A stretch of 39,822 bases of DNA. Source: Pirellulales bacterium (GTDB lineage Bacteria > Planctomycetota > Planctomycetia > Pirellulales > JADZDJ01). Both the position numbers and the translations under genes were made by a program. Positions 5,821 through 16,845 of the stretch are shown here, piece by piece. How positions within the stretch are numbered: the stretch's first letter is position 1; the number at the start of each line of letters is the position of its first letter. The notes under the pieces are model-generated. The model did not search any database. It saw nothing but the letters and a program-made list of their open reading frames with translations, and was not told where the DNA came from. Location of the stretch: the NCBI GenBank assembly GCA_035656635.1, contig DASRSD010000188.1:1-39822 (forward strand). The letters are read 5' to 3'.

Positions 5821-5866
5821 AAAAAAGCCGCCGGCAGTCGCACATCAGTCACGACCACCGGCGGCT
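5821..5866 (-). terminator. Intrinsic terminator of the pilM-secretin operon
   Basis: On the reverse strand a perfect GC stem (CCGGCGGC at 5858-5865 on the plus strand, with GCCGCCGG at 5827-5834) carries an inner GTCG/CGAC pairing. It is followed directly by six T residues (plus-strand A-run 5821-5826). It lies 62 bases beyond the secretin stop codon. Confidence 0.85.
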
Positions 5867-5928
5867 CGGGGGGAATTTTGGTTTACGGACCGTACCTCCG
5901 CTGGGAAGACTCCCAAGACAGTGGCTTT

Positions 5929-8900
5929 CTATGGCGACGGCGGCCCTATTAAGTTTTCCTCTTCTTCCTCTTCAATAATAATGCGCGGCGTGACCATCAT
6001 CATCAGGCTGCTAGTGGTCCGCCCAATGCCTGTATTGCGAAATAGGCGGTTAATGTAGGGCAACTTGCTAAGCACTGGCACGCCTTCCTCAACTCGCCCT
6101 TCGCTTAATCGCTTAATGCCGCCCAACAGCACCGTGCCACCGTCCGGCACACTGACCGTGGTCGTGACAGTGACAAACGAGAATTGGGGCAATTGCACCG
6201 TGGTAGCAGCGCTGGATGAATCATTTTCACTGCTGTTGGCAGTACTTTGGTCGGTGCTATTTTTTGCTTCCGATGATTTTTGTGTCGATGAACTCGACCC
6301 GGTAAACGTGAACGTGTTGACCTGGCCAATGTTGCTAAAGAACGGCACCACAGTCAGACGAACAAACCGTCGATCATTCGAGACGACCGCCTGCACCGTC
6401 AGCGATGTACCTTCGGATAGCACCACAATCACCGGCTGTTGTGCGGCGGCAAAATCACCTACGACTGGAATAACGCTCGTGACGAATGGCACCTGCGTGG
6501 TATCGCTGACCGTGGCTTGCTGGCCGTTGAATAATGTTACTTTGGGCGCTTGCATTACGTTGCTGCGGTTGTCGCCTTGCGCCGCCTGCACCACAAAAAA
6601 CGCTTGAATATCGCTAAGGATGGCAAAGCCAAAAGTGGCCGCCGAACCAGCATCAAACGTCCCGGGAAACGGCGGTAATGTCGAACCAAAACTGCCTTGG
6701 CGGAACTGAACGTCCTGAAACTGCGTGATCGCTCCGGTAGGATCCAAGCCAACTACGGCACTGGGCTGCACCGGGCCGAACGACGGGGGCGCCGTAATCG
6801 TCGAAGGCACCGGATTGGGCACCGTCGTGTTGGTTGGAATATTAAATTGGAAGTTCACGCCGATACGTTCGAAGAAATCATCGTCGAGCGTGATGAACCG
6901 CACTTCAATGGTCACTTGCAAATCTTCCAATTTGCGGAGTTGCGCCAGCAGGTCGGCAATTTGCTCATGCACTTCCTGAGTTTGGCTCACGACCAAGCTC
7001 AAGTTGGTATCGTAGCCTTGAATCGTGCCGGGACCGCCCATCTCTGACCAGCTTTGTGGAGCGATGGTGGAAGTGATCAGGTCGATAAGCGTGTCGAAAT
7101 CGGCCTGCGCGCCCCCTTTCATGCCTCCAGGGCCAAACGGAATATTTTGCGGCGATCCTGACTGCGATTGCCCGCTGCCGCTCATCGGAAAAGGAATGCC
7201 GCGCGTGCTCATTTGCTGGCTCAACACCGTCGAGCTAATGCCACCGTTGCTGGCAGGCTCATTGACCGCCAGTGCAGGCGATGGAGCACCAAAGCCGCCG
7301 CCCGCTGCGCCGCCCCATCCCATGCGTGCCATGGCCTCGCGGAAAGCACCGTTAATGCCTTCCTGGCCAGTGGGCGCGAAATTCGGGATGCGAATAACCA
7401 AATCGCCGACCGAGTAGGTTTGCGTATATACTTGCCCACGCTTGACATCAATGGTCGTAATTTTCAGCACTTCGTCGCTAATGATGTAGGTTAGCCGCAA
7501 GGGATCCAGAATCAACTTAAGTGCGCTTTTCAACGAAATATCTTGGCTCAAATCAATGCTAATAGGCGTGTCGCTTTGCACGCCCTCCGCTTGCAATCCT
7601 TGCGGATCAAGGAAGGTTGGAACTTGCGCAATTTTGCCCAGTTTGTCGATGACTTCCGACAACGGAATTTTATCGAATCTCACCGCCACCGGAGTGCTCA
7701 GACGCTGCTCGATATCCTGTTCCTTGGCCGAACGACGGTGGAATTCTTGCTTCCGCCGCGCCGGACTGATGCTGAGCTCATGCCATTTTTTTGCATCGGG
7801 CATTTGGAAATCGCCGGAGAACGGAATCGCCGATTTGTCAACCTCGTTCATCGTCAGCCAAAAGCCGTCTTCTTGCGAGTCCTTCACTTGCTGATTGATC
7901 GCCACGCGCGAAACCATCTTCGACATCACCTGCAGTTGCACGACAACCGGATCATCTGGATCGAGTTCGGTGGCTCGCTTGGCGACCACTTGTGCTTCGG
8001 CGTACCGTTGTTCGTCCAAAAGCTTGTTAAAATCTTTGACCAATGCCAAAACTTTTTCCTGCGTCTCAAGTTTTTCCTTGCGGGTGCGGTCGACATCTTG
8101 CTGCACCTGCCGATTCTTTTCTTCCTGTTCAATTTCCGGCGCGTTGGCGGCGATGTATTGCTGCAAATCGTGAATACTTAAATCCAACCGACGCAACATT
8201 TGCTCCTTCGCGGGCGCATCTAGCCCATTCACCGAGGCCACCATTTCGCGAGTGCGTTGCAGTAATTCCAGCGCTTGCTTGGGTTGTTTTTCGCGCATGT
8301 CGCGAGCCAAGGTTTGTTGCCGGGTTACTTCCGCAGCCACTTGGCGCGAAAGCGTAGCACTGGAAACCGTCACACCATCCAAGGGTGTTGCCGGTGCAGC
8401 AATCGGCGGAGCAGCGGATGTCGAGGCCATCAATGTTCCTGATGCCAGCGCAGCGGGTGGTAGGCCGCCGTTCTGCGGAGCCGCTCCAACGATAGGGCTA
8501 AGGGTTTGCGGATGGTCGAGCGAATTTGCCGAATTACTGGCTGGTAAGTTGCGAGTCGGATCTTGGTCGGGGTTATACAAGGCTTGAATTCCCGGATAGC
8601 GGTTCTCGGCTGTCGGTGCCGTCCCACCAACCGGCACGGCTTCATACGTTCCGGCCTGGATTACTCCGTTGGCCCCCTCCGCATGGCCACCACCCGGGGC
8701 AATTCCACTTCGTTTAGCGCGTTCAATATCCAACAGCACCAGTGTCGGCCGATCTTCATTCACCGAAAACGCCGTGTCAGGAGCCAGCATTTCGGCTTGG
8801 CGTGCAATCAGTTCCGCGGTAGCCAAATCACCCCGCGCCATAGCAGCCCGCGCCTGCTTGGCCATATCGATCGCGCCTTGTTTGTTTATTGTTCCGGCAG

Positions 8901-10416
8901 AAACTGCCGGCATGGTCGCTGGATTCATCGGCAAAGCAGGCGCCGCTGCTAAGCTTGCTTGAGGAGGCAATTCTAAAATGCCTGCGGTGTGCATGCCGGT
9001 AGAAATTCGATCCAACAACTGCTCCGGCCGGGGCTCAAACGGAGTGTAATTGATTGCCAAGCGCTGCACTTCAAGAGCCAACCGTTTGGCTTCGTCATAC
9101 TCATGCCACCGCAACAACCCCTCTGCTTGCTCCATAAGCACTTCAGCGCGCAATCGACGGGCGGTTTCTGAATCTGCGGCGGTTATGTTGGGAGGAACTT
9201 TTTTGGTTTTGACAATCAGCGCTTCAACTTTTGCGGGGCTGTCGTCCAGTGCGCTGTAGCTCACGCCCAAGCCCTGGGCCTGATTCACTTTGATTTCGGC
9301 ATTGCGAAGATCGTTCTGCGCCAACAACCGTCGTGCCTCCAGCAACAAATTATCGCTTTGAATTTTGACGGCGTTTTGATTTTGTGCAGCGGCATCTTCC
9401 AGGCGCGGCTGGACTGGAGGCAATGTATTGCTAGTTGGAGGCAAAACATTATTGACGTCGGCGATGACATTCGCTCTCGTTGGACCTCCAATTTCCCACG
9501 GATTGGAATCATCCGCAGAACCCCGTCCTGAATTAATCAAGCTGTTAGGTGCAATTGCCAACCCGAGGCCTGCAGGCAATGGTGCGGCTGCAGCGCCAGG
9601 CATTTGTAGGCCGACCGGGGGTGAGCTATTGGCTGGGTTGATAGAGTTTGAGGCCGGCAATTTGCTAACCGGATTACCCGCCCAAGGCGAACTTTGTGAA
9701 TTCGGCACGCCCGCGGGACGTGCGCTTGGACCTGGCGCCGGCAATATAGTGGGTTGCGAAGCTGCCATCCCACGCGAGATTGGTTGCAAGTTCTGTGTGG
9801 CCGTTGGCGGCGATTGCGAGCCACCGGTGGAGGGCAGCGGCAAACTGGGCGTTTTGGCCGCTCGATCGGCCGTTCCGTCGAGAGCCTTTCCTGCGGCGTT
9901 GGCAGTGCCCTGGTTAACGGCATTAGATTTTTGAGTGTTTCCACTCCCGGAATTGGTGGCATCGGGTTTGGCATTCAACGATTCGGTATTCATCAACGAC
10001 GGGTGGCCGAGAAATGGATCTTTCGGTCCCGTCGTTTGTGATTTGGCCATCGGCTTTTGGCCGCTGTGATCCGTGCCTACGGCTTTTTCCCCGAGCAGGC
10101 GGTCAAGATCGGCGCGGGCTTTTTTGGGCGTATCGCCAATATGCAGCGGCAGATATTTGGGCTGCAAAGCTTCGGCACGCGAAATTTTAGAGTCCGCAAT
10201 TTCGTAATTTCCCTCCGTCATTGCCGCACGCGCTTCGCGCAACAATTCATCGGCTTGGGCGGTGGCGGAGCGGCCATCGTCTCCCAAACTGGCGGCGCCG
10301 AGCAATAGCGGCAAAGCCGATTGAACCCCGGCCCAACCACAGACGGGCGACAAGCAAATTATCGCCAGCAAAATCGCGATAAGTTTGGACGTGAGTTTAT
10401 ACACACGATCCTCCAT
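5929..10416 (-). CDS. Giant GspD/PilQ-type secretin with repeat-rich N-terminus
   Basis: Outer-membrane secretin subunit of a type II secretion or type IV pilus-like machine, here 1495 residues against about 600-750 in classical GspD/PilQ. A signal peptide (TSKLIAILLAIICLSPVCG region) is followed by TPR-like helical pairs near residues 40-110, 350-400, 420-480, 520-580 and 760-820. Long Pro/Ser/Asn-rich linkers separate them, with a charged coiled-coil at about 690-780. A secretin N-type domain (IPLSEVIDKLGKIAQVPTFL) lies near residue 915. The secretin core begins near residue 1165 (VTIEVRFITLDDDFFERIGV) and ends with VSVPDGGTVLLGGIKRLSEG near residue 1420 and PRIIIEEEEEEN at the C-terminus. 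The ATG at 10416 has AGGGGA seven bases upstream; the TTG at 10464 is rejected because it would mask the signal peptide. It is the last gene of the operon. Confidence 0.9.
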   Translation of the reverse strand: MEDRVYKLTSKLIAILLAIICLSPVCGWAGVQSALPLLLGAASLGDDGRSATAQADELLREARAAMTEGNYEIADSKISRAEALQPKYLPLHIGDTPKKARADLDRLLGEKAVGTDHSGQKPMAKSQTTGPKDPFLGHPSLMNTESLNAKPDATNSGSGNTQKSNAVNQGTANAAGKALDGTADRAAKTPSLPLPSTGGSQSPPTATQNLQPISRGMAASQPTILPAPGPSARPAGVPNSQSSPWAGNPVSKLPASNSINPANSSPPVGLQMPGAAAAPLPAGLGLAIAPNSLINSGRGSADDSNPWEIGGPTRANVIADVNNVLPPTSNTLPPVQPRLEDAAAQNQNAVKIQSDNLLLEARRLLAQNDLRNAEIKVNQAQGLGVSYSALDDSPAKVEALIVKTKKVPPNITAADSETARRLRAEVLMEQAEGLLRWHEYDEAKRLALEVQRLAINYTPFEPRPEQLLDRISTGMHTAGILELPPQASLAAAPALPMNPATMPAVSAGTINKQGAIDMAKQARAAMARGDLATAELIARQAEMLAPDTAFSVNEDRPTLVLLDIERAKRSGIAPGGGHAEGANGVIQAGTYEAVPVGGTAPTAENRYPGIQALYNPDQDPTRNLPASNSANSLDHPQTLSPIVGAAPQNGGLPPAALASGTLMASTSAAPPIAAPATPLDGVTVSSATLSRQVAAEVTRQQTLARDMREKQPKQALELLQRTREMVASVNGLDAPAKEQMLRRLDLSIHDLQQYIAANAPEIEQEEKNRQVQQDVDRTRKEKLETQEKVLALVKDFNKLLDEQRYAEAQVVAKRATELDPDDPVVVQLQVMSKMVSRVAINQQVKDSQEDGFWLTMNEVDKSAIPFSGDFQMPDAKKWHELSISPARRKQEFHRRSAKEQDIEQRLSTPVAVRFDKIPLSEVIDKLGKIAQVPTFLDPQGLQAEGVQSDTPISIDLSQDISLKSALKLILDPLRLTYIISDEVLKITTIDVKRGQVYTQTYSVGDLVIRIPNFAPTGQEGINGAFREAMARMGWGGAAGGGFGAPSPALAVNEPASNGGISSTVLSQQMSTRGIPFPMSGSGQSQSGSPQNIPFGPGGMKGGAQADFDTLIDLITSTIAPQSWSEMGGPGTIQGYDTNLSLVVSQTQEVHEQIADLLAQLRKLEDLQVTIEVRFITLDDDFFERIGVNFQFNIPTNTTVPNPVPSTITAPPSFGPVQPSAVVGLDPTGAITQFQDVQFRQGSFGSTLPPFPGTFDAGSAATFGFAILSDIQAFFVVQAAQGDNRSNVMQAPKVTLFNGQQATVSDTTQVPFVTSVIPVVGDFAAAQQPVIVVLSEGTSLTVQAVVSNDRRFVRLTVVPFFSNIGQVNTFTFTGSSSSTQKSSEAKNSTDQSTANSSENDSSSAATTVQLPQFSFVTVTTTVSVPDGGTVLLGGIKRLSEGRVEEGVPVLSKLPYINRLFRNTGIGRTTSSLMMMVTPRIIIEEEEEENLIGPPSP

Positions 10417-10729
10417 GATCGATTCCCCTCGAGAGCCTGAACAGGCACGAACGACGAAAAGCATTTACACGGTCGCGTCTGGCACAATTTGCGTCGGGAA
10501 CGAATCGGTAAGCTTGGCCTTTGCGAACGCTCCGACCGGTTTCACTAGTTTTCGTTCTACGTCGGCGCAATCGTGCCGACGAGGCTTACCGGCGGCAAAA
10601 AAATGCCGGCCGGGAAAACCGCAGACGAGGGCGGGATAAATACCGGCTGGAAAATGACCGGTCAAGCCCAACTCGAACGATTGAACAAAAAAATCGCCTG
10701 CCTGCTGCTAGCAAATGCACGTCACGGAC
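10417..10729. other. Intra-operon spacer rich in hairpins
   Basis: The 313 bases between the 706-aa gene and the secretin carry no convincing gene; a 68-codon reverse frame lacks a ribosome site. A hairpin pairs CGTCGGC (10560-10566) with GCCGACG (10575-10581). A second, GC-rich one spans an A7 run at 10588-10613 (CCGGCGGCA with TGCCGGCCGG, imperfect). These could be processing or attenuation sites that set the level of secretin relative to the upstream genes, which is inference. Confidence 0.4.
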
Positions 10730-12850
10730 CTACTTCTGGCCCTTTGGCGTGCCAGGTCCCGGTGGACCTTTGCCTGCCCCGGGATTGCCCAAGCGATTAC
10801 CTCCATAAGGCGTACCAGGACCAGGTCGACCATGCTCGTTGCCAGGCCGAGGAACGAGAGGAGTCTCGGCGCCGGGCGATTGCGCCATATCCGCTGGCGG
10901 CTTGGACCGCTCGAGGTAATCGTCAAGCATCAGCTTATCTGCCGCACGGCTCGCGTTGTAAACGCGTCCAGAACTGTCCATCAGCAACAATTCGGTAGCC
11001 TCTTTCAATTTGCCGTCGCCCAGCGGCTTGTCGTTACGCGCATCGAGCAAAATGGTTTGATTGGTGTCGATGTTAAGTTTGTCGGCCTTACGAACCTGTT
11101 CGGACGACATATCGAGCACCTTGTCAACATCCCCATCGTGCACATAGATAAGTCCGCCCAGGGGTATATCTGCAATATCCTTTACCACTTCGATCCATGT
11201 GTCCGAATTGGCCGGCGTCGCGCCAGATGGCAATTCAGCTGCGGAGGTTTTGGCATACGCCAGCAGATTTATCCTGGCTTTCACGTCCGCAGGCCGGTTA
11301 CCGATTAAGCTATCGGCCAGAACATGAAATGTCGCTGGAACAGCAACCGGCGGCGTTTCCACCCAAGACGACCAGTCGGTGAATTTTTTCCCTACGCTGC
11401 CGGCTTGGATTGCCTTTGGATCCAAGCAATCTTCCCGCAACGCGTAATTAGGATTGTATAGCAGCAGTTGAATTCTGTATCGGTAAGTTTTGCCGGGTTC
11501 CGCCGTCAGATCGACAAAGCGAAACAACTTGTAGGGATCAACGTATAAGTCGCCTTGTTGCATTCCTCCCATCATGCCCACGCCGGGACCGCGAATTCCG
11601 CCGCCGGGACCTGCAATGGGAACCTGTGGCATGCGCACCGGCGGTACCACACCATGTTCCATGCCTGGCAGCATTCGCCCGCCACGACCTGGCGTGAGGG
11701 TGTCCAAATTCCCATTTTGATTCGCATCCGGTTGATTTTCGGGAACAGCGGCGCCGGCCGAATTCAGTTTTACTTTGGGATGCGCGGCTTCCAGGCCCCA
11801 ATTCTTCAAAAACAAAGGAGGCAATGGCCAAGTGGTATAAAATAGCTGGTCGCCGAATTGCGCGGGCTCGAAGATGTCGTCAGGATGCACAATTTCAGGA
11901 GACTGTGTCGCCCACTTCTCCAAATCTTTCTTGACCTCCGAGTTCACAATATTCGTCTTGGACAAAATCGGCGTCCAACTGCGGGCAGCATCTTTGGCGT
12001 CTTTGACTTCAGATCGCTCGATCAGAAAACAAAAATAATGCGGCAATTCCGGTTGGCCAGGCGGCGGCGACGGGATTAAGGGTTGCTTCTTGCCATCTGT
12101 GTCGGGAAAGCCCGGCACCGCGGCTTCGAATTTGCGGCGATATTCGTCTACCTCTTTTTCCACCGGAACAGCGCCGGTAATAATCACGTAGGATTTTGGT
12201 TGGGGATCTGAGCCCGGCGCACGAACGCCGGCGATCACACTGTTTTGGTCAAATCGCGATTGCGCTCCTCCCATGCCTCCATAAGCGCCGCCTACTCCTG
12301 GCCCGTGAACGGCGCCGCCGGGGCCAGCAACTCCAGCACCGGGCCCCGCCACCCCCGGACCACCAACTCCAGGGCCAGCAACGGCCGGACCAATTGTTCC
12401 AGCAGCCGCCGGCGCAGCAACAGCTTCCTGCTTGTAAGGGACAAGGCCGCTTCCAGCGGCAATTTGCAGTTCCTCGACCGGGTATATTTCTGGATCAACC
12501 CGTTTGATTAACTCCGGAAACAAAGGTGGATCCCATTCATGCGGATCGTGAAGCGGCTGGCCGGAAATGGGCCGCATGAATTCGTCGATCCGATCTTTGT
12601 AATGCGTTTGCAACAAGCCCATTTCGTTGCGATGCGCCGTCCAGGTGGGCGACTGAATGGTCGATACCACCTGGCTGCTTTCGTGTTTGATGGCGTCAGG
12701 CGATTTGCTGTCGTCCAACGGTTTGGCGGTAATCGTCGAGTATAGAAACAGCAAAAAGATGATCACGGTCAGGCCGAGAACGATCTTCTCGCCATTACCT
12801 AGAAAAAAACGTTTCATTCCGTCGGCGTTGAGGCTGATTTTTGCTTTCAT
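10730..12850 (-). CDS. Membrane-anchored low-complexity protein of the pilM-secretin operon
   Basis: A 706-residue protein with a short cytosolic N-terminus, one membrane helix (about residues 23-42, KIVLGLTVIIFLLFLYSTIT) and a large periplasmic part. Residues 145-195 form a Gly/Pro/Ala repeat (units of GPGVGGPG and similar). A second Gly-Pro-Met patch lies near residues 390-430, and residues 660-706 are Pro/Gly-rich. Between them are globular-looking stretches (SYVIITGAVPVEKEVDEYRR and DLTAEPGKTYRYRIQLLLYN). By position (after PilM and the 530-aa protein, before the secretin) it may act as a PilP/GspC-like connector to the secretin. There is no clear sequence similarity I can name, so that role is inference from order. 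Confidence 0.75.
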   Translation of the reverse strand: MKAKISLNADGMKRFFLGNGEKIVLGLTVIIFLLFLYSTITAKPLDDSKSPDAIKHESSQVVSTIQSPTWTAHRNEMGLLQTHYKDRIDEFMRPISGQPLHDPHEWDPPLFPELIKRVDPEIYPVEELQIAAGSGLVPYKQEAVAAPAAAGTIGPAVAGPGVGGPGVAGPGAGVAGPGGAVHGPGVGGAYGGMGGAQSRFDQNSVIAGVRAPGSDPQPKSYVIITGAVPVEKEVDEYRRKFEAAVPGFPDTDGKKQPLIPSPPPGQPELPHYFCFLIERSEVKDAKDAARSWTPILSKTNIVNSEVKKDLEKWATQSPEIVHPDDIFEPAQFGDQLFYTTWPLPPLFLKNWGLEAAHPKVKLNSAGAAVPENQPDANQNGNLDTLTPGRGGRMLPGMEHGVVPPVRMPQVPIAGPGGGIRGPGVGMMGGMQQGDLYVDPYKLFRFVDLTAEPGKTYRYRIQLLLYNPNYALREDCLDPKAIQAGSVGKKFTDWSSWVETPPVAVPATFHVLADSLIGNRPADVKARINLLAYAKTSAAELPSGATPANSDTWIEVVKDIADIPLGGLIYVHDGDVDKVLDMSSEQVRKADKLNIDTNQTILLDARNDKPLGDGKLKEATELLLMDSSGRVYNASRAADKLMLDDYLERSKPPADMAQSPGAETPLVPRPGNEHGRPGPGTPYGGNRLGNPGAGKGPPGPGTPKGQK

Positions 12851-12924
12851 TGGAACACCTTTGGTTCCTCATGAGTTTTGTGTGCTAAGTGATTGCTTCG
12901 GCAGCGTGCTGCTACCCTCGGGAG

Positions 12925-14517
12925 TTATGGATTGGGAGGTGCTGCTCCCGTCGCTGGCGGCGCAGCAGGCTCAGTTCCAGCGGGCGGAGTCGCCGGAGCA
13001 GGCGTTGTGGTTGGGCCTGGAGCGGTTGTCGTCGGTGCAGGAGATGCTGGAGACTCAGGCGTGCTTGTTGTCGTCGGTCCTGTGGCGGCTGGCGCGGTTT
13101 CGGCTGGCGCTCCCGGGGTTGGCGCTGTTGGGATTGGCGCTCCGGCAGCTGTGGCATCTCCACTGGCTGCGGCAACGGGCAGTTTTTGTGGATCAACCGG
13201 ACGAATCAAATAAACAACTCCACGGATTTCCACGGTCACAAAGCGATCTTGCTGCGTCGTACTGGCAGCAGCGGCTGCATGATCGCTGCCTCGGCCAGGC
13301 CCTAAAATTGCCGGCCCCGAATGAGCAAAACCTCCTCCGCCACCACCATTGACATGTTCGGGATTGATTCGCACTTGCTGTACTTCCATGGGCAGCACTG
13401 AATTGCGAAATGCCACCAGCAAGCGGTCGATGGAACGGCTATCCATTTTGAGGAGTAAGCGGAACGGCATCAGCCGATACTCGCCAGTGTCGGCATCGAC
13501 TTCTTCTTTTGTCAGCGGAGTGCCGTCGGCCTTGACGTAACGACGGCTTTTAAGCAAATCGTCGGGATTGATCTCTGCACTGGCCCCTCCGAAGCCGCGA
13601 CTAGATAATTCTCGTTTCCCGCGAGATTTGGGGTCCAGCCGGATATTGCTGCTATCGCCCGGCGCCCCGGGGCTGGTTGGCGCGGGCCCTGCCGTCGGGG
13701 CGCTGGTGCCTAGCGACTCCACGCGATTTTGCCCGGCACCGCCCGGCGAATCTTCCACGGCGTTGTAGGCAATGTCCAGGGCGTTTATTTCTGTGATATG
13801 GGCATCTTGCCTTCCGTTCGTCCCCTCATTCACGGACTTAATCACATTGCACAGCGCGCGATATACCCACAATTCTTCCTGCGCGTATTTGACGAGCAAT
13901 GTCGAGGGGCGTTCGGTCCATTCGAACGATTGCCCAATTTCTTGCTGCGATGCCGTCGACCAATCGACTTTATGATCCGGTCCGCCGCCGCCGGGCGCAC
14001 CTGCCCCGGGACCAAAAATGCCTAGAACACCCGCGAAGCCTCCGCCATTGCCAGCTTGGCCGGCCGGCTCGGCGTCCACGATTGCCGGAAGCTGTTCAAC
14101 CAATTGCTTCACACGCCGCTGATAATACTCGCGCAAATTGCGAGGCAACTCTGCTTGTGGATCGTCCAACCGTGCGGCAGCATCGAGAAAATCGGCGCTT
14201 AAAACGTCTTTGGGCCACACGAAGATTTTTTCTTTTTGTTCCTTGTATAAAGCAGCCCAGGCGTCTCGAACGTCCGCAGCCACTGCAGCCGTCTCTTTTT
14301 TAATTCCGTCCGGCCAGTCATCGTGCGGCCCCTGGGAATCAACTCCTCGCAAGCTTGAGAATACGCCATTGATGGCTTGGCTATCTTGATCGAATTGCGC
14401 CTTCAATTTTCCGCTGGCCAAATACCATGCCAGCACGCCGGCAAACGCGGATACTGCGCACAGAATCCAAAAGTGATGCTTGCGGGCGATTTCGAGGTAT
14501 TGCTTGACTTTATCCAT
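12925..14517 (-). CDS. PilO-like membrane-anchored protein of the pilM-secretin operon
   Basis: A 530-residue protein: short N-terminus MDKVKQYLEIARKHHFWI running into one membrane helix (residues 15-32), then a helical periplasmic region (about 35-160, LKAQFDQDSQAINGVFSSLR onward) of the kind seen in PilO/GspM. A globular middle follows (FRLLLKMDSRSIDRLLVAFR near residues 360-400, a ferredoxin-like alpha/beta look), and a Pro/Ala/Thr tail of about 90 residues. The ATG at 14517 is preferred to the GTG at 14559 because it puts the membrane helix at the usual place. A PilO-like role is inferred from topology and operon order, not from a diagnostic motif. Confidence 0.75.
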   Translation of the reverse strand: MDKVKQYLEIARKHHFWILCAVSAFAGVLAWYLASGKLKAQFDQDSQAINGVFSSLRGVDSQGPHDDWPDGIKKETAAVAADVRDAWAALYKEQKEKIFVWPKDVLSADFLDAAARLDDPQAELPRNLREYYQRRVKQLVEQLPAIVDAEPAGQAGNGGGFAGVLGIFGPGAGAPGGGGPDHKVDWSTASQQEIGQSFEWTERPSTLLVKYAQEELWVYRALCNVIKSVNEGTNGRQDAHITEINALDIAYNAVEDSPGGAGQNRVESLGTSAPTAGPAPTSPGAPGDSSNIRLDPKSRGKRELSSRGFGGASAEINPDDLLKSRRYVKADGTPLTKEEVDADTGEYRLMPFRLLLKMDSRSIDRLLVAFRNSVLPMEVQQVRINPEHVNGGGGGGFAHSGPAILGPGRGSDHAAAAASTTQQDRFVTVEIRGVVYLIRPVDPQKLPVAAASGDATAAGAPIPTAPTPGAPAETAPAATGPTTTSTPESPASPAPTTTAPGPTTTPAPATPPAGTEPAAPPATGAAPPNP

Positions 14518-14598
14518 TGGAATGCTGATCTGATGGTTATCTGCTGAATGTGCCCGCACTTGTGCTTTATCTAACTGACCTGCCGGGCATCACACTTC

Positions 14599-16845
14599 TT
14601 ATCCGGCCGGCGCTGCGGCAACTTTCGGTTGTTCCTGTTCGGGTGTTTTTTGTTTTTCTGCGGTAAGACGATTTTTTTGCCGTTGCAAATACGGAGTTGG
14701 CTTCCAGATGAATTCAATCACGAAGGGGAACTCCGGCACTTCCTGTGACACCGCTTTGGCCGCTGCTGCCGCAGCGGCGTTGGCCCCCATTCCTGGACCG
14801 GACGGTCCTGTAACCACGCCGCCATTGCCCGGAATATTCGGATCGGTAACAGTGGTCATGATGGTATTGGTTTGGGTGCTGACAAGCACTGGCATGTCGA
14901 TTCCCAAATCCTTGGTCGAAAGCAAAATGGGCCGGCCCTTGTCGTCGACGTCGGCCAACTGAATGTCGTTCTTTTCGCGCAGTTGCTTGAGCAACGTTCC
15001 ACGGACATATTCGGCCGCACTATTTTGATCGTCGCTATGGTTGTGGTAATGGTGCGCCTTAATCATCACGATCCACCCGCTATTGCCCGAGGCGTCAAGC
15101 AGCCCGTTGCCGCTGGAATCCACAACAGCCGCTGGCGCCGCAGTCCCATCGGGAGCAGGAGTGGCTGCGGGAGGTCCGCCAGCAGGAGCTGGCGCGGGGG
15201 CGGCTGGCGGGGCGCCTCCGGCATTAGGGTCGGGCTGGGCGGCGTCGGGCGGCGCGGCTGCGGCTTTCGGTTTTTCATCGGTGGGCATCAATTGCTGCGC
15301 CGCGGCAATCCAATCGGTCAGATCAGAGCGTTTTTCGCAGTCGATGGAATCCACGTAAATAATGTTGCGCTTATCAATTTCGGGCGGCGGTTTTCCGTCA
15401 TCTTTGGGCAGGCAATCGTTCACTGCTTTTAGCAATTCCGCCCATACCACACGGTGATCGCCAATAGCCGATAATCGCTGGCCGACAGTCTGCACCTTGT
15501 CGTAGCTGTTGGGGTCGTCTTCTTTGGCGGCTTTAAAAGCAGTTCCCGCTGCGCTGGCCATGGCGGTAGCGCTTTTCGCGGCGCTAAAGGCTGGCTGGTA
15601 AGCATCAAGTTGGGCTGAATTCCATTCGCGCCACCGGGCCAAGTAGCCGAAGGTGCAACCCAACAACAGCATTGCGACCGCCACAACCGCCCAGGGCTTT
15701 TTGGCGCGGATCATGCGATCTTTAACAATTTCGCGCGGCAACAAATTAGTGCTTAATCTGGAGAGTCCCAGGCCTTGCACGCACAAGCCGTAGCAGGCGC
15801 CGAACGAAAGGAAGTTATCTTTGAACGCTGGCGAAGAAGTCACCGCGGAACCACTGAGTTGTCGGTAGCCATCCAATTCCGCCACTTCCAAACCGAGATT
15901 TTGCGCGAGGTATTTGTGCAAGCCACGGAGCTTCATCGCATTCCCTAGCGGAATAACGCGTCCCAATTTGGCGGTGCGATCTAAGTTTTGAAAGAAGCTC
16001 AAAGAGCGCTGCACTTCTTCCAAAAGTTCGCCAAAGACCGGCCGCATGGCCTGAAATACGGCCTTAGGGTCTTCGGCCTTCATGGCGTTCCGCTTCAAAT
16101 GCTCCGCCTTGGCAAACGTCAGCTTCATTTGCTTGGTCAGCGCTTTGGTGAAATTGTTTCCACCCAGGTTCACGGTGCGCTGCCAAACGCGGTAACCGTT
16201 GGTGACCACCAGGTCCGACATGCCCGCGCCCAACGACATCACAATCACGCTCGGCGGCGGGTCTTCCGGATTGTATTGCTCGACCGGCGGAATATCCGGC
16301 ATTTGGTCGAACGTGACAAAGTTGTACAACGCCACGGGCGTGAGCTGTACAATTTCCACTTCAATGCCGGCATCGGTAAATGGTCTTAGCGCGCGATTCA
16401 CTTGATCGCGCTTCATGGCAAACAAGCCAACTTCGGTTTCCAGCGCAAAGCCTTCCTCCACGCTGCCGCCCGCCATTTGCTGGTAGTCCCACACCACATC
16501 TTCCAGCGCAAAAGGAATTTGCTGCCGGGCTTCATATTTGACAATGTCGGGGACCTTTTTCGATTCCACCGGCGGCAATTTGATGAACCGCGCCAAGCCG
16601 CTTTGGCCGGAAACGGAAATTGCCACCTTCATCCCCTTGACCGTGTTGCGCGACAGGAACGTCTCCAGCGCCTCCTTCATCAACTCGGCGGGATTGGCGT
16701 CGGGCTGGCCGAGAATTTTCGGATATTCGATAAAATCGAACGCTTCGGCGACAATTTTTCCCGGCTCGTCGCCGGCGCGGCAAAGCAAAGCCTTGAGCGC
16801 ACATTGCCCCAGGTCGATTCCCCAAATAGACCCCGTCTTCGCCAT
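14599..16845 (-). CDS. pilM: PilM-type actin-like protein fused to a PilN/GspL-like membrane part
   Basis: A 748-residue protein. Residues 1-360 are the cytosolic PilM/GspL actin-like fold (IDLGQCALKALLCRAGDEPG; VAISVSGQSGLARFIKLPPV; PSVIVMSLGAGMSDLVV, the phosphate-2 loop). A membrane helix follows at about 384-402 (PWAVVAVAMLLLGCTFGYLA), then a periplasmic helical region and a Pro/Ala-rich segment near 545-590. A final alpha/beta domain contains SGWIVMIKAHHYHNHSDDQN. Classical PilM is about 350 residues and cytosolic, with PilN separate; the single chain here resembles GspL in layout. PilM binds ATP and couples the cytoplasmic ATPase ring to the membrane platform. GAGGGA lies about seven bases before the ATG. 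First gene of the operon. Confidence 0.9.
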   Translation of the reverse strand: MAKTGSIWGIDLGQCALKALLCRAGDEPGKIVAEAFDFIEYPKILGQPDANPAELMKEALETFLSRNTVKGMKVAISVSGQSGLARFIKLPPVESKKVPDIVKYEARQQIPFALEDVVWDYQQMAGGSVEEGFALETEVGLFAMKRDQVNRALRPFTDAGIEVEIVQLTPVALYNFVTFDQMPDIPPVEQYNPEDPPPSVIVMSLGAGMSDLVVTNGYRVWQRTVNLGGNNFTKALTKQMKLTFAKAEHLKRNAMKAEDPKAVFQAMRPVFGELLEEVQRSLSFFQNLDRTAKLGRVIPLGNAMKLRGLHKYLAQNLGLEVAELDGYRQLSGSAVTSSPAFKDNFLSFGACYGLCVQGLGLSRLSTNLLPREIVKDRMIRAKKPWAVVAVAMLLLGCTFGYLARWREWNSAQLDAYQPAFSAAKSATAMASAAGTAFKAAKEDDPNSYDKVQTVGQRLSAIGDHRVVWAELLKAVNDCLPKDDGKPPPEIDKRNIIYVDSIDCEKRSDLTDWIAAAQQLMPTDEKPKAAAAPPDAAQPDPNAGGAPPAAPAPAPAGGPPAATPAPDGTAAPAAVVDSSGNGLLDASGNSGWIVMIKAHHYHNHSDDQNSAAEYVRGTLLKQLREKNDIQLADVDDKGRPILLSTKDLGIDMPVLVSTQTNTIMTTVTDPNIPGNGGVVTGPSGPGMGANAAAAAAAKAVSQEVPEFPFVIEFIWKPTPYLQRQKNRLTAEKQKTPEQEQPKVAAAPAG

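Follow-up and report, generated by a model that had tools for sequence, protein, structure and literature searches.

A conserved planctomycete PilM-secretin operon as the probable scaffold of a type IV pilus-like machine, and a candidate motor cluster elsewhere in the genome

A four-gene operon from a Pirellulales bacterium represents a divergent, phylum-wide variant of the type IV pilus (T4P) alignment and secretin module, related to MUL2 of Akkermansia muciniphila. We consider it probable that the products of this operon form an envelope-spanning scaffold for a machine resembling a type IV pilus, with the motor and fibre provided in trans, most likely by a gene cluster on another contig (C107). 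The observations behind this reading are the gene content, the predicted fold of gene 2, the conservation of gene order and a motor cluster without scaffold genes. From these we infer how the machine would assemble, its pairing with C107 and its function.

The window, that is, the whole stretch of DNA analysed (39,822 nucleotides), is contig C188 of a 4.9 Mb genome in 190 contigs that is 95.6% complete, and where relatives of gene 1 carry a name, they belong to metagenome-assembled genomes (MAGs) of Pirellulales and other Planctomycetota, so that the host is taken for one of these. An earlier note, made from the letters of the window, had proposed four genes of 748, 530, 706 and 1495 residues on one strand that end at a good terminator, and both the minus-strand layout and the terminator are borne out:

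14599..16845, minus strand: gene 1, long-form PilM, 748 aa
12925..14517, minus strand: gene 2, predicted PilO/Amuc_1100-like single-pass protein, 530 aa (longest frame 544)
10730..12850, minus strand: gene 3, single-pass protein with a probable fibronectin-III-like domain, in the PilP/GspC/Amuc_1099 position, 706 aa
10590..10665, minus strand: hairpins and T-run in the gap between gene 3 and the secretin gene, possible internal terminator (fold z -3.3)
5929..10416, minus strand: gene 4, giant secretin, 1495 aa (longest frame 1511)
5825..5867, minus strand: intrinsic terminator after the secretin gene, predicted from the sequence (fold -34.7 kcal/mol, z -5.4)

None of 200 shuffles equalled the terminator stem (5867-5825). 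The stem is absent from the output of a consensus terminator scan with a loop limit of 8, in which terminator-like sites were no commoner than in shuffles. Gene 3 and the secretin gene are separated by 313 nt (265 with the longest frame), and since this gap holds hairpins and a T-run, the secretin gene may be a transcription unit of its own. As the earlier note had stated, Pfam matches above cut-off are restricted to genes 1 and 4 (PilM_2 at 96.1 bits and Secretin at 85.7 bits, respectively), and genes 2 and 3 each have one transmembrane (TM)-like stretch (residues 16-34 and 23-41) and Pro/Gly/Ala-rich segments that include the C-terminal tail. The absence of a nearby ATPase, platform protein or pilin is likewise upheld, as all T2SSE, T2SSF and N-methyl pilin matches of the genome lie off contig C188. 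The broader proposal of a diverged machine with its ATPase encoded elsewhere stands as regards PilM, the conserved order and the distant ATPases, but the membership of the secretin is looser than that note assumed, because of the hairpin-bearing gap and because the secretin is often encoded elsewhere in relatives.

By its sequence, gene 1 is a long-form PilM with a TM segment and a periplasmic part of its own. An actin-like PilM domain (residues 9-356) is followed by a TM stretch (385-403) and a periplasmic part with two low-complexity stretches. The combination of PilM domain, TM segment and periplasmic part in one protein is the architecture of GspL or of a PilM-PilN fusion. The top NCBIfam match of gene 1 is the Amuc_1101 family (NF045709; 190.8 bits over residues 29-481 and 436 of 608 positions), below the equivalog cut-off of 650; the generic PilM model scores 139.3 bits, and M. 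xanthus PilM is matched at 1e-30. A second long PilM-like protein, with open frames of 870-885 aa, is encoded elsewhere in three genomes of family f16 (L224:3969-6587, G017:C10:1655664 and G240:C1:438909), and recognised partner genes are absent beside it in the single region examined.

Sequence searches with genes 2 and 3 against Pfam, NCBIfam (E 1) and the PDB gave nothing useful, and their scans list no Amuc_1099-type match; one of 17 members of the gene 2 family matches Amuc_1100_fam (E 0.0089). The AlphaFold2 model of gene 2, built from a 17-sequence alignment, has a mean pLDDT of 65, with folded blocks mostly at 77-96 and 200 of 530 residues below 50. The top ten Foldseek hits of this model in the PDB are all Amuc_1100 chains (best E 6.6e-5, probability 1.0), and VIA places three Amuc_1100 entries at Z 11.1, 10.7 and 10.4, the first two corresponding to an rmsd of 7.3 over 180 residues and of 3.6 over 170 residues. 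PilO structures score in the middle range, under Amuc_1100 (2rjz, Z 6.2; 5uvr, Z 5.2), and the periplasmic domain of EpsL reaches Z 4.6. Neither GspM nor GspC occurs among the VIA rows listed for gene 2, which still leaves room for a GspM-like relationship. The predicted fold of gene 2 thus matches Amuc_1100, a PilO-type protein.

Gene 3 probably contains a fibronectin-III-like domain. Its AlphaFold2 model has a mean pLDDT of 61, and the VIA rows listed for it are nearly all FN3-type, with a best Z of 7.5 that is weak by itself; no PilP or GspC is found among the listed fold-search rows. The assignment is supported by the third-gene protein of a distant family (L205:8477-9412), which matches Pfam fn3 at 31.6 bits (cut-off 25) and is not detected by the gene 3 sequence model.

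The secretin encoded by gene 4 begins with a signal or TM stretch (residues 13-31), continues through about five spaced TPR-like units (66-848) and an N0-like region assigned by eye (about 907-1005), and ends with the secretin domain (1279-1480). It scores 91 bits against PilQ and 88 bits against GspD (NCBIfam), and 60.1 bits against the Amuc_1098 model NF042912 (cut-off 750). The TPR-like units that the earlier note had placed before the ring domain recur in relatives: a model made from five units of the window's secretin recognises between two and five in every one of 22 other Pirellulales secretins, against none in three shuffled sets, a control that excludes composition only. The same window-derived model finds few units in the shorter secretins of other families; Pfam TPR_2 exceeds its cut-off of 27 in both other-family secretins checked (41.1 and 27.4 bits). 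When the C-terminal part of the secretin was searched in 22 genomes, 19 gave a strong match (in G049 only a contig-edge fragment), two matched in pieces (G074 and G187) and one gave weak matches only (G012). Apart from G049, the homologues in relatives have open frames of about 950-1730 aa.

Further secretin-like genes came to light. A group of open frames, about 1330-1440 aa long, shows partial similarity to the N0-like and ring parts of the secretin (G000:C160:18842-20962, and similarly in G008, G017, G019, G028, G035 and G053). On contig C60 of the window's own genome, a protein of about 655 aa contains a secretin domain (L235:4996-6960), and inspection of the ORFs of this 12-kb contig by eye revealed no other secretion genes. 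Elsewhere, two or three secretin-family genes stand in tandem after a PilM-type operon (L214:10682-18591, L211:2006-7837 and L216:10445-15690; one Pfam-checked).

Across Pirellulales, genes 1-3 are found as a group, and the gene pattern points to the same grouping in most of the 40 regions from the wider phylum; the secretin gene is often unlinked. A gene 3 match is present in 49 of 57 genomes, that of the window included. We fetched 40 regions by place, chosen from these 49 genomes, and genes 1-2-3 stand in this order in 38 of them, the other two being cut at a contig end. The secretin gene comes next after gene 3 in 20 of the 40; at least four of the remaining regions (L063, L065, L084 and L090) end too early to judge, and a strong secretin copy lies elsewhere in 12 of 13 searched genomes without an adjacent one. 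Among 195 genomes of the phylum, each at least 90% complete, 189 have a PilM match, the weak ones of which (for example in family f42) may be ordinary PilM. Of the 40 phylum regions, 37 each represent a different family outside the class, two belong to family f21 and one (L224) is a paralogue. In 36 of the 40, both ORFs that follow PilM have a TM-like stretch at the N terminus; these include L194 and L198, in which the second ORF is itself the secretin. L196 and L206 (wrong frame probably picked), L223 (just under threshold) and L224 do not conform. A secretin follows within 6 kb in 23 of these regions. The earlier note had named a lack of conserved order, or strong matches of the middle proteins to unrelated families, as grounds for abandoning its proposal; the order is conserved in planctomycetes, and the middle genes gave no strong match to an unrelated family.

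At 29 of 49 distinct Pirellulales loci, some of which are cut at this point, a large conserved gene diverges from the pilM operon (L041:6878-9778 and equivalents), and seven of 17 scanned members match Glyco_hydro_38N at 0.001; this gene is not found beside the operon of the window. We dropped this GH38-like neighbour as functional support, as no signal peptide is obvious by eye and the gene is absent from the window.

The best candidate for the missing motor was reached by elimination. Contig C107 encodes PilB-PilT-PilB-PilC together with pilin-like genes, and genome-wide searches found no PilM_2 or Secretin match on it. Three other sets in the same genome are differently equipped: on C123, a PilM and a secretin stand with an ATPase and a platform gene of their own, the genes on C57 make up a T2SS-like set, and the gene content of C93 is Tad-like. 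The two C107 PilBs score 636 and 630 bits, under the PilB model cut-off of 675.65, which was passed in only one of 40 genomes searched; the C107 PilT is over its own cut-off. Similar clusters are conserved in planctomycetes (L101:7612-14280 on C107, and L236-L255), with two PilB-type ATPases that usually flank PilT and are followed by PilC. Models of genes 1-4 match nothing in 20 of 20 other motor-cluster neighbourhoods, and PilC is present in 17 of the 20 fetched. A PilB-PilT-PilB run occurs in 19 of 34 searched genomes with a long-form PilM and PilB-PilB in six more; the remaining nine show neither run among the matches listed. We regard the C107 cluster, itself lacking PilM and secretin, as the likely motor of the operon. 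Weighing against this are the PilB scores under the cut-off and the nine genomes without a listed run. In other families, moreover, the operon is linked to ExbB/ExbD, and no PilB, PilT or PilC was found beside it, save a PilT-like gene in L221.

Operon and motor cluster do not co-occur strictly across genomes, as a test showed. The cluster is found in four genomes with no detected long-form PilM, namely G111, G175 and G202 (family f56) and G081, so that the pairing is not obligatory, and in the stretches read beside the cluster in these genomes the models of genes 1-4 detect nothing. None of the four searched genomes of family f71 has a PilB-PilT-PilB run. Weak PilM matches are seen in G155 of that family (4.9e-4) and in G081 (1.1e-4).

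The closest known locus is Amuc_1098-1101 (MUL2) of Akkermansia muciniphila, which the operon resembles in its PilM with a long C-terminal part, the predicted Amuc_1100 fold of gene 2 and a secretin with TPR-like units in its N-terminal part. Amuc_1098 has 907 aa, with a secretin domain at 650-876 and three TPRs (PMC4960237), whereas the planctomycete secretin has 1495 aa; the operon also stays below the equivalog cut-offs, and other planctomycete families have additional TPR, ExbB and ExbD genes. There is no N-methyl pilin match on contig C188, and Amuc_1102 is itself described as archaeal-pilin-like (PMC13174399). The MUL2 locus of Verrucomicrobiales (amuc_1099-1102) has been connected with attachment and with mul-dependent uptake of glycans (PMC13174399); mentions of planctomycetes were found in that paper at two places, both in the reference list. 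In comparison with type IVa PilMNOP and PilQ, the operon has PilM, a secretin and single-pass partners, and the predicted fold of gene 2 may be of the PilO type. PilM and secretin are in the operon, and PilB, PilT, PilC and pilins are in the genome (C107). Unlike type IVa systems, the operon has no separate recognised PilN or PilP gene, the TPR units are inside the secretin, and the motor genes are unlinked and often have two PilBs around PilT. PilP is a lipoprotein that connects to the secretin, whereas gene 3 encodes an N-terminal TM protein with a probable FN3-like domain, and no PilP match is listed for it.

Taken together, these features suggest how the machine might be assembled. The long-form PilM would sit under the inner membrane and extend into the periplasm, much as GspL or a PilM-PilN fusion does, and the PilO/Amuc_1100-like protein would pair with it. 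The FN3-type protein could then bridge towards the outer membrane in place of PilP/GspC, and the TPR-extended secretin would form the outer-membrane pore, its own TPR units perhaps replacing a separate TPR pilotin. The PilB-PilT-PilB-PilC-pilin cluster on C107 most likely supplies the motor and fibre in trans. Extension and retraction of such a fibre by way of the secretin may serve attachment and also glycan capture, the latter as proposed for the Akkermansia locus. By analogy with these relatives, the machine may plausibly act in attachment and in the uptake of glycans.

Outside Pirellulales the operon is often extended. Eighteen phylum regions continue for 6.2 kb or more beyond the secretin, a limit that was chosen after the data had been seen, and 13 of them have a same-strand ExbB homologue downstream (L194, L196, L198, L199, L203-L206, L208, L209, L212, L218 and L219); L200, L214, L216, L220 and L221 have the room and no ExbB match. 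ExbB is followed by two ExbD-motif ORFs in all 11 loci examined (L196 and L206, which end near ExbB, were left out) and is usually preceded by two TPR genes. Models of these, built from six and seven of the 13 loci, match 11 (TPR1) and 12 (TPR2) of the 13, with L218 matched by neither. Pfam confirmed ExbB (MotA_ExbB) in two loci and both ExbDs of one. The operon-linked ExbBs have a mean identity of 39% to each other. The extension suggests a second, proton-driven partner, and these same data favour a reading in which the scaffold, TPR proteins and ExbB/ExbD form a proton-driven secretin machine that moves polymers across the envelope, the pilus being secondary or absent. We hold this to be unlikely, as the Pirellulales regions searched show no ExbB/ExbD link and eight of the 13 extended genomes also have a PilB-PilT-PilB (four) or PilB-PilB (four) run, the other five showing neither among the matches listed. 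Moreover, the genome of the window has five MotA/ExbB matches, and the three compared were rejected as members of the operon-linked group (C14 and C174 at 18-28% and a C153 fragment at 19-35% identity). On C174, a TPR protein (1102 aa), ExbB and ExbD stand in a row (L231:5097-9889), and the 121.6-bit score of this TPR protein against a TPR model may reflect general TPR similarity.

Two further readings concern the kind of machine and the place of the secretin in it. The operon could encode a type II-like exporter, in which the long-form PilM is GspL-like, genes 2 and 3 correspond to GspM and GspC, and the secretin exports enzymes. Gene 1, with its actin-like domain, TM segment and periplasmic part, the single-pass partners and a secretin of nearly equal score to PilQ and GspD all resemble GspL-GspM-GspC-GspD. 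We nevertheless think such an exporter quite unlikely, given that gene 2 is closest to Amuc_1100 and then PilO, and that a separate T2SS-like set exists on C57. The secretin might instead be a separate unit serving another system, its neighbourhood incidental, with genes 1-3 forming a complex of their own. The hairpins and T-run before the gene, the 20 Pirellulales regions in which it is not next and the strong copies elsewhere speak for this reading. Against it speaks that the gene is linked in 23 of the 40 phylum regions, the majority of them belonging to distant families, and we judge it distinctly improbable.

If the operon is the scaffold of a type IV pilus-like machine, as we favour, it bears on several features of planctomycete biology. 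Crateriform structures carry 12-nm pili-like fibres that bind dextran, and the available text of the paper assigns no gene to these structures (PMC5394234). One paper terms the mechanism of selfish polysaccharide import in some planctomycetes unknown and cites the type IV pili of Fimbriiglobus in connection with adhesion to chitin (PMC11131199). Among open-access titles and abstract openings, we found no planctomycete PilM-secretin-ExbBD operon, the exact combination not having been a query. What appears to be new is a Planctomycetota-wide relative of the known MUL2/T4P scaffold, together with an unexpected ExbBD-linked form.

A bolder idea, which we find rather doubtful, is that a dual-energised machine of Planctomycetota, combining the PilM/Amuc_1100/FN3/TPR-secretin scaffold with PilB-PilT-PilB and, in many families, TPR-TPR-ExbB-ExbD-ExbD, is the basis of crateriform structures, dextran-binding fibres and selfish polysaccharide uptake, and shares one ancestral PVC system with mucin uptake by Akkermansia. 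If true, macromolecule uptake by planctomycetes and mucin uptake by Akkermansia would be brought together. The pilQ-like genes of Planctopirus limnophila are non-essential and have been deleted singly and as a triple mutant, and these existing deletions, for which the available text gives no fibre or uptake phenotype, make the role proposed for the operon directly testable (PMC11958385). The operon and the candidate motor cluster offer concrete candidate genes for the building of fibres by planctomycetes and perhaps for their uptake of polysaccharides, and the predicted Amuc_1100 fold ties a much-studied probiotic protein to what would be a structural role in a pilus-like machine that is conserved outside Verrucomicrobiota.
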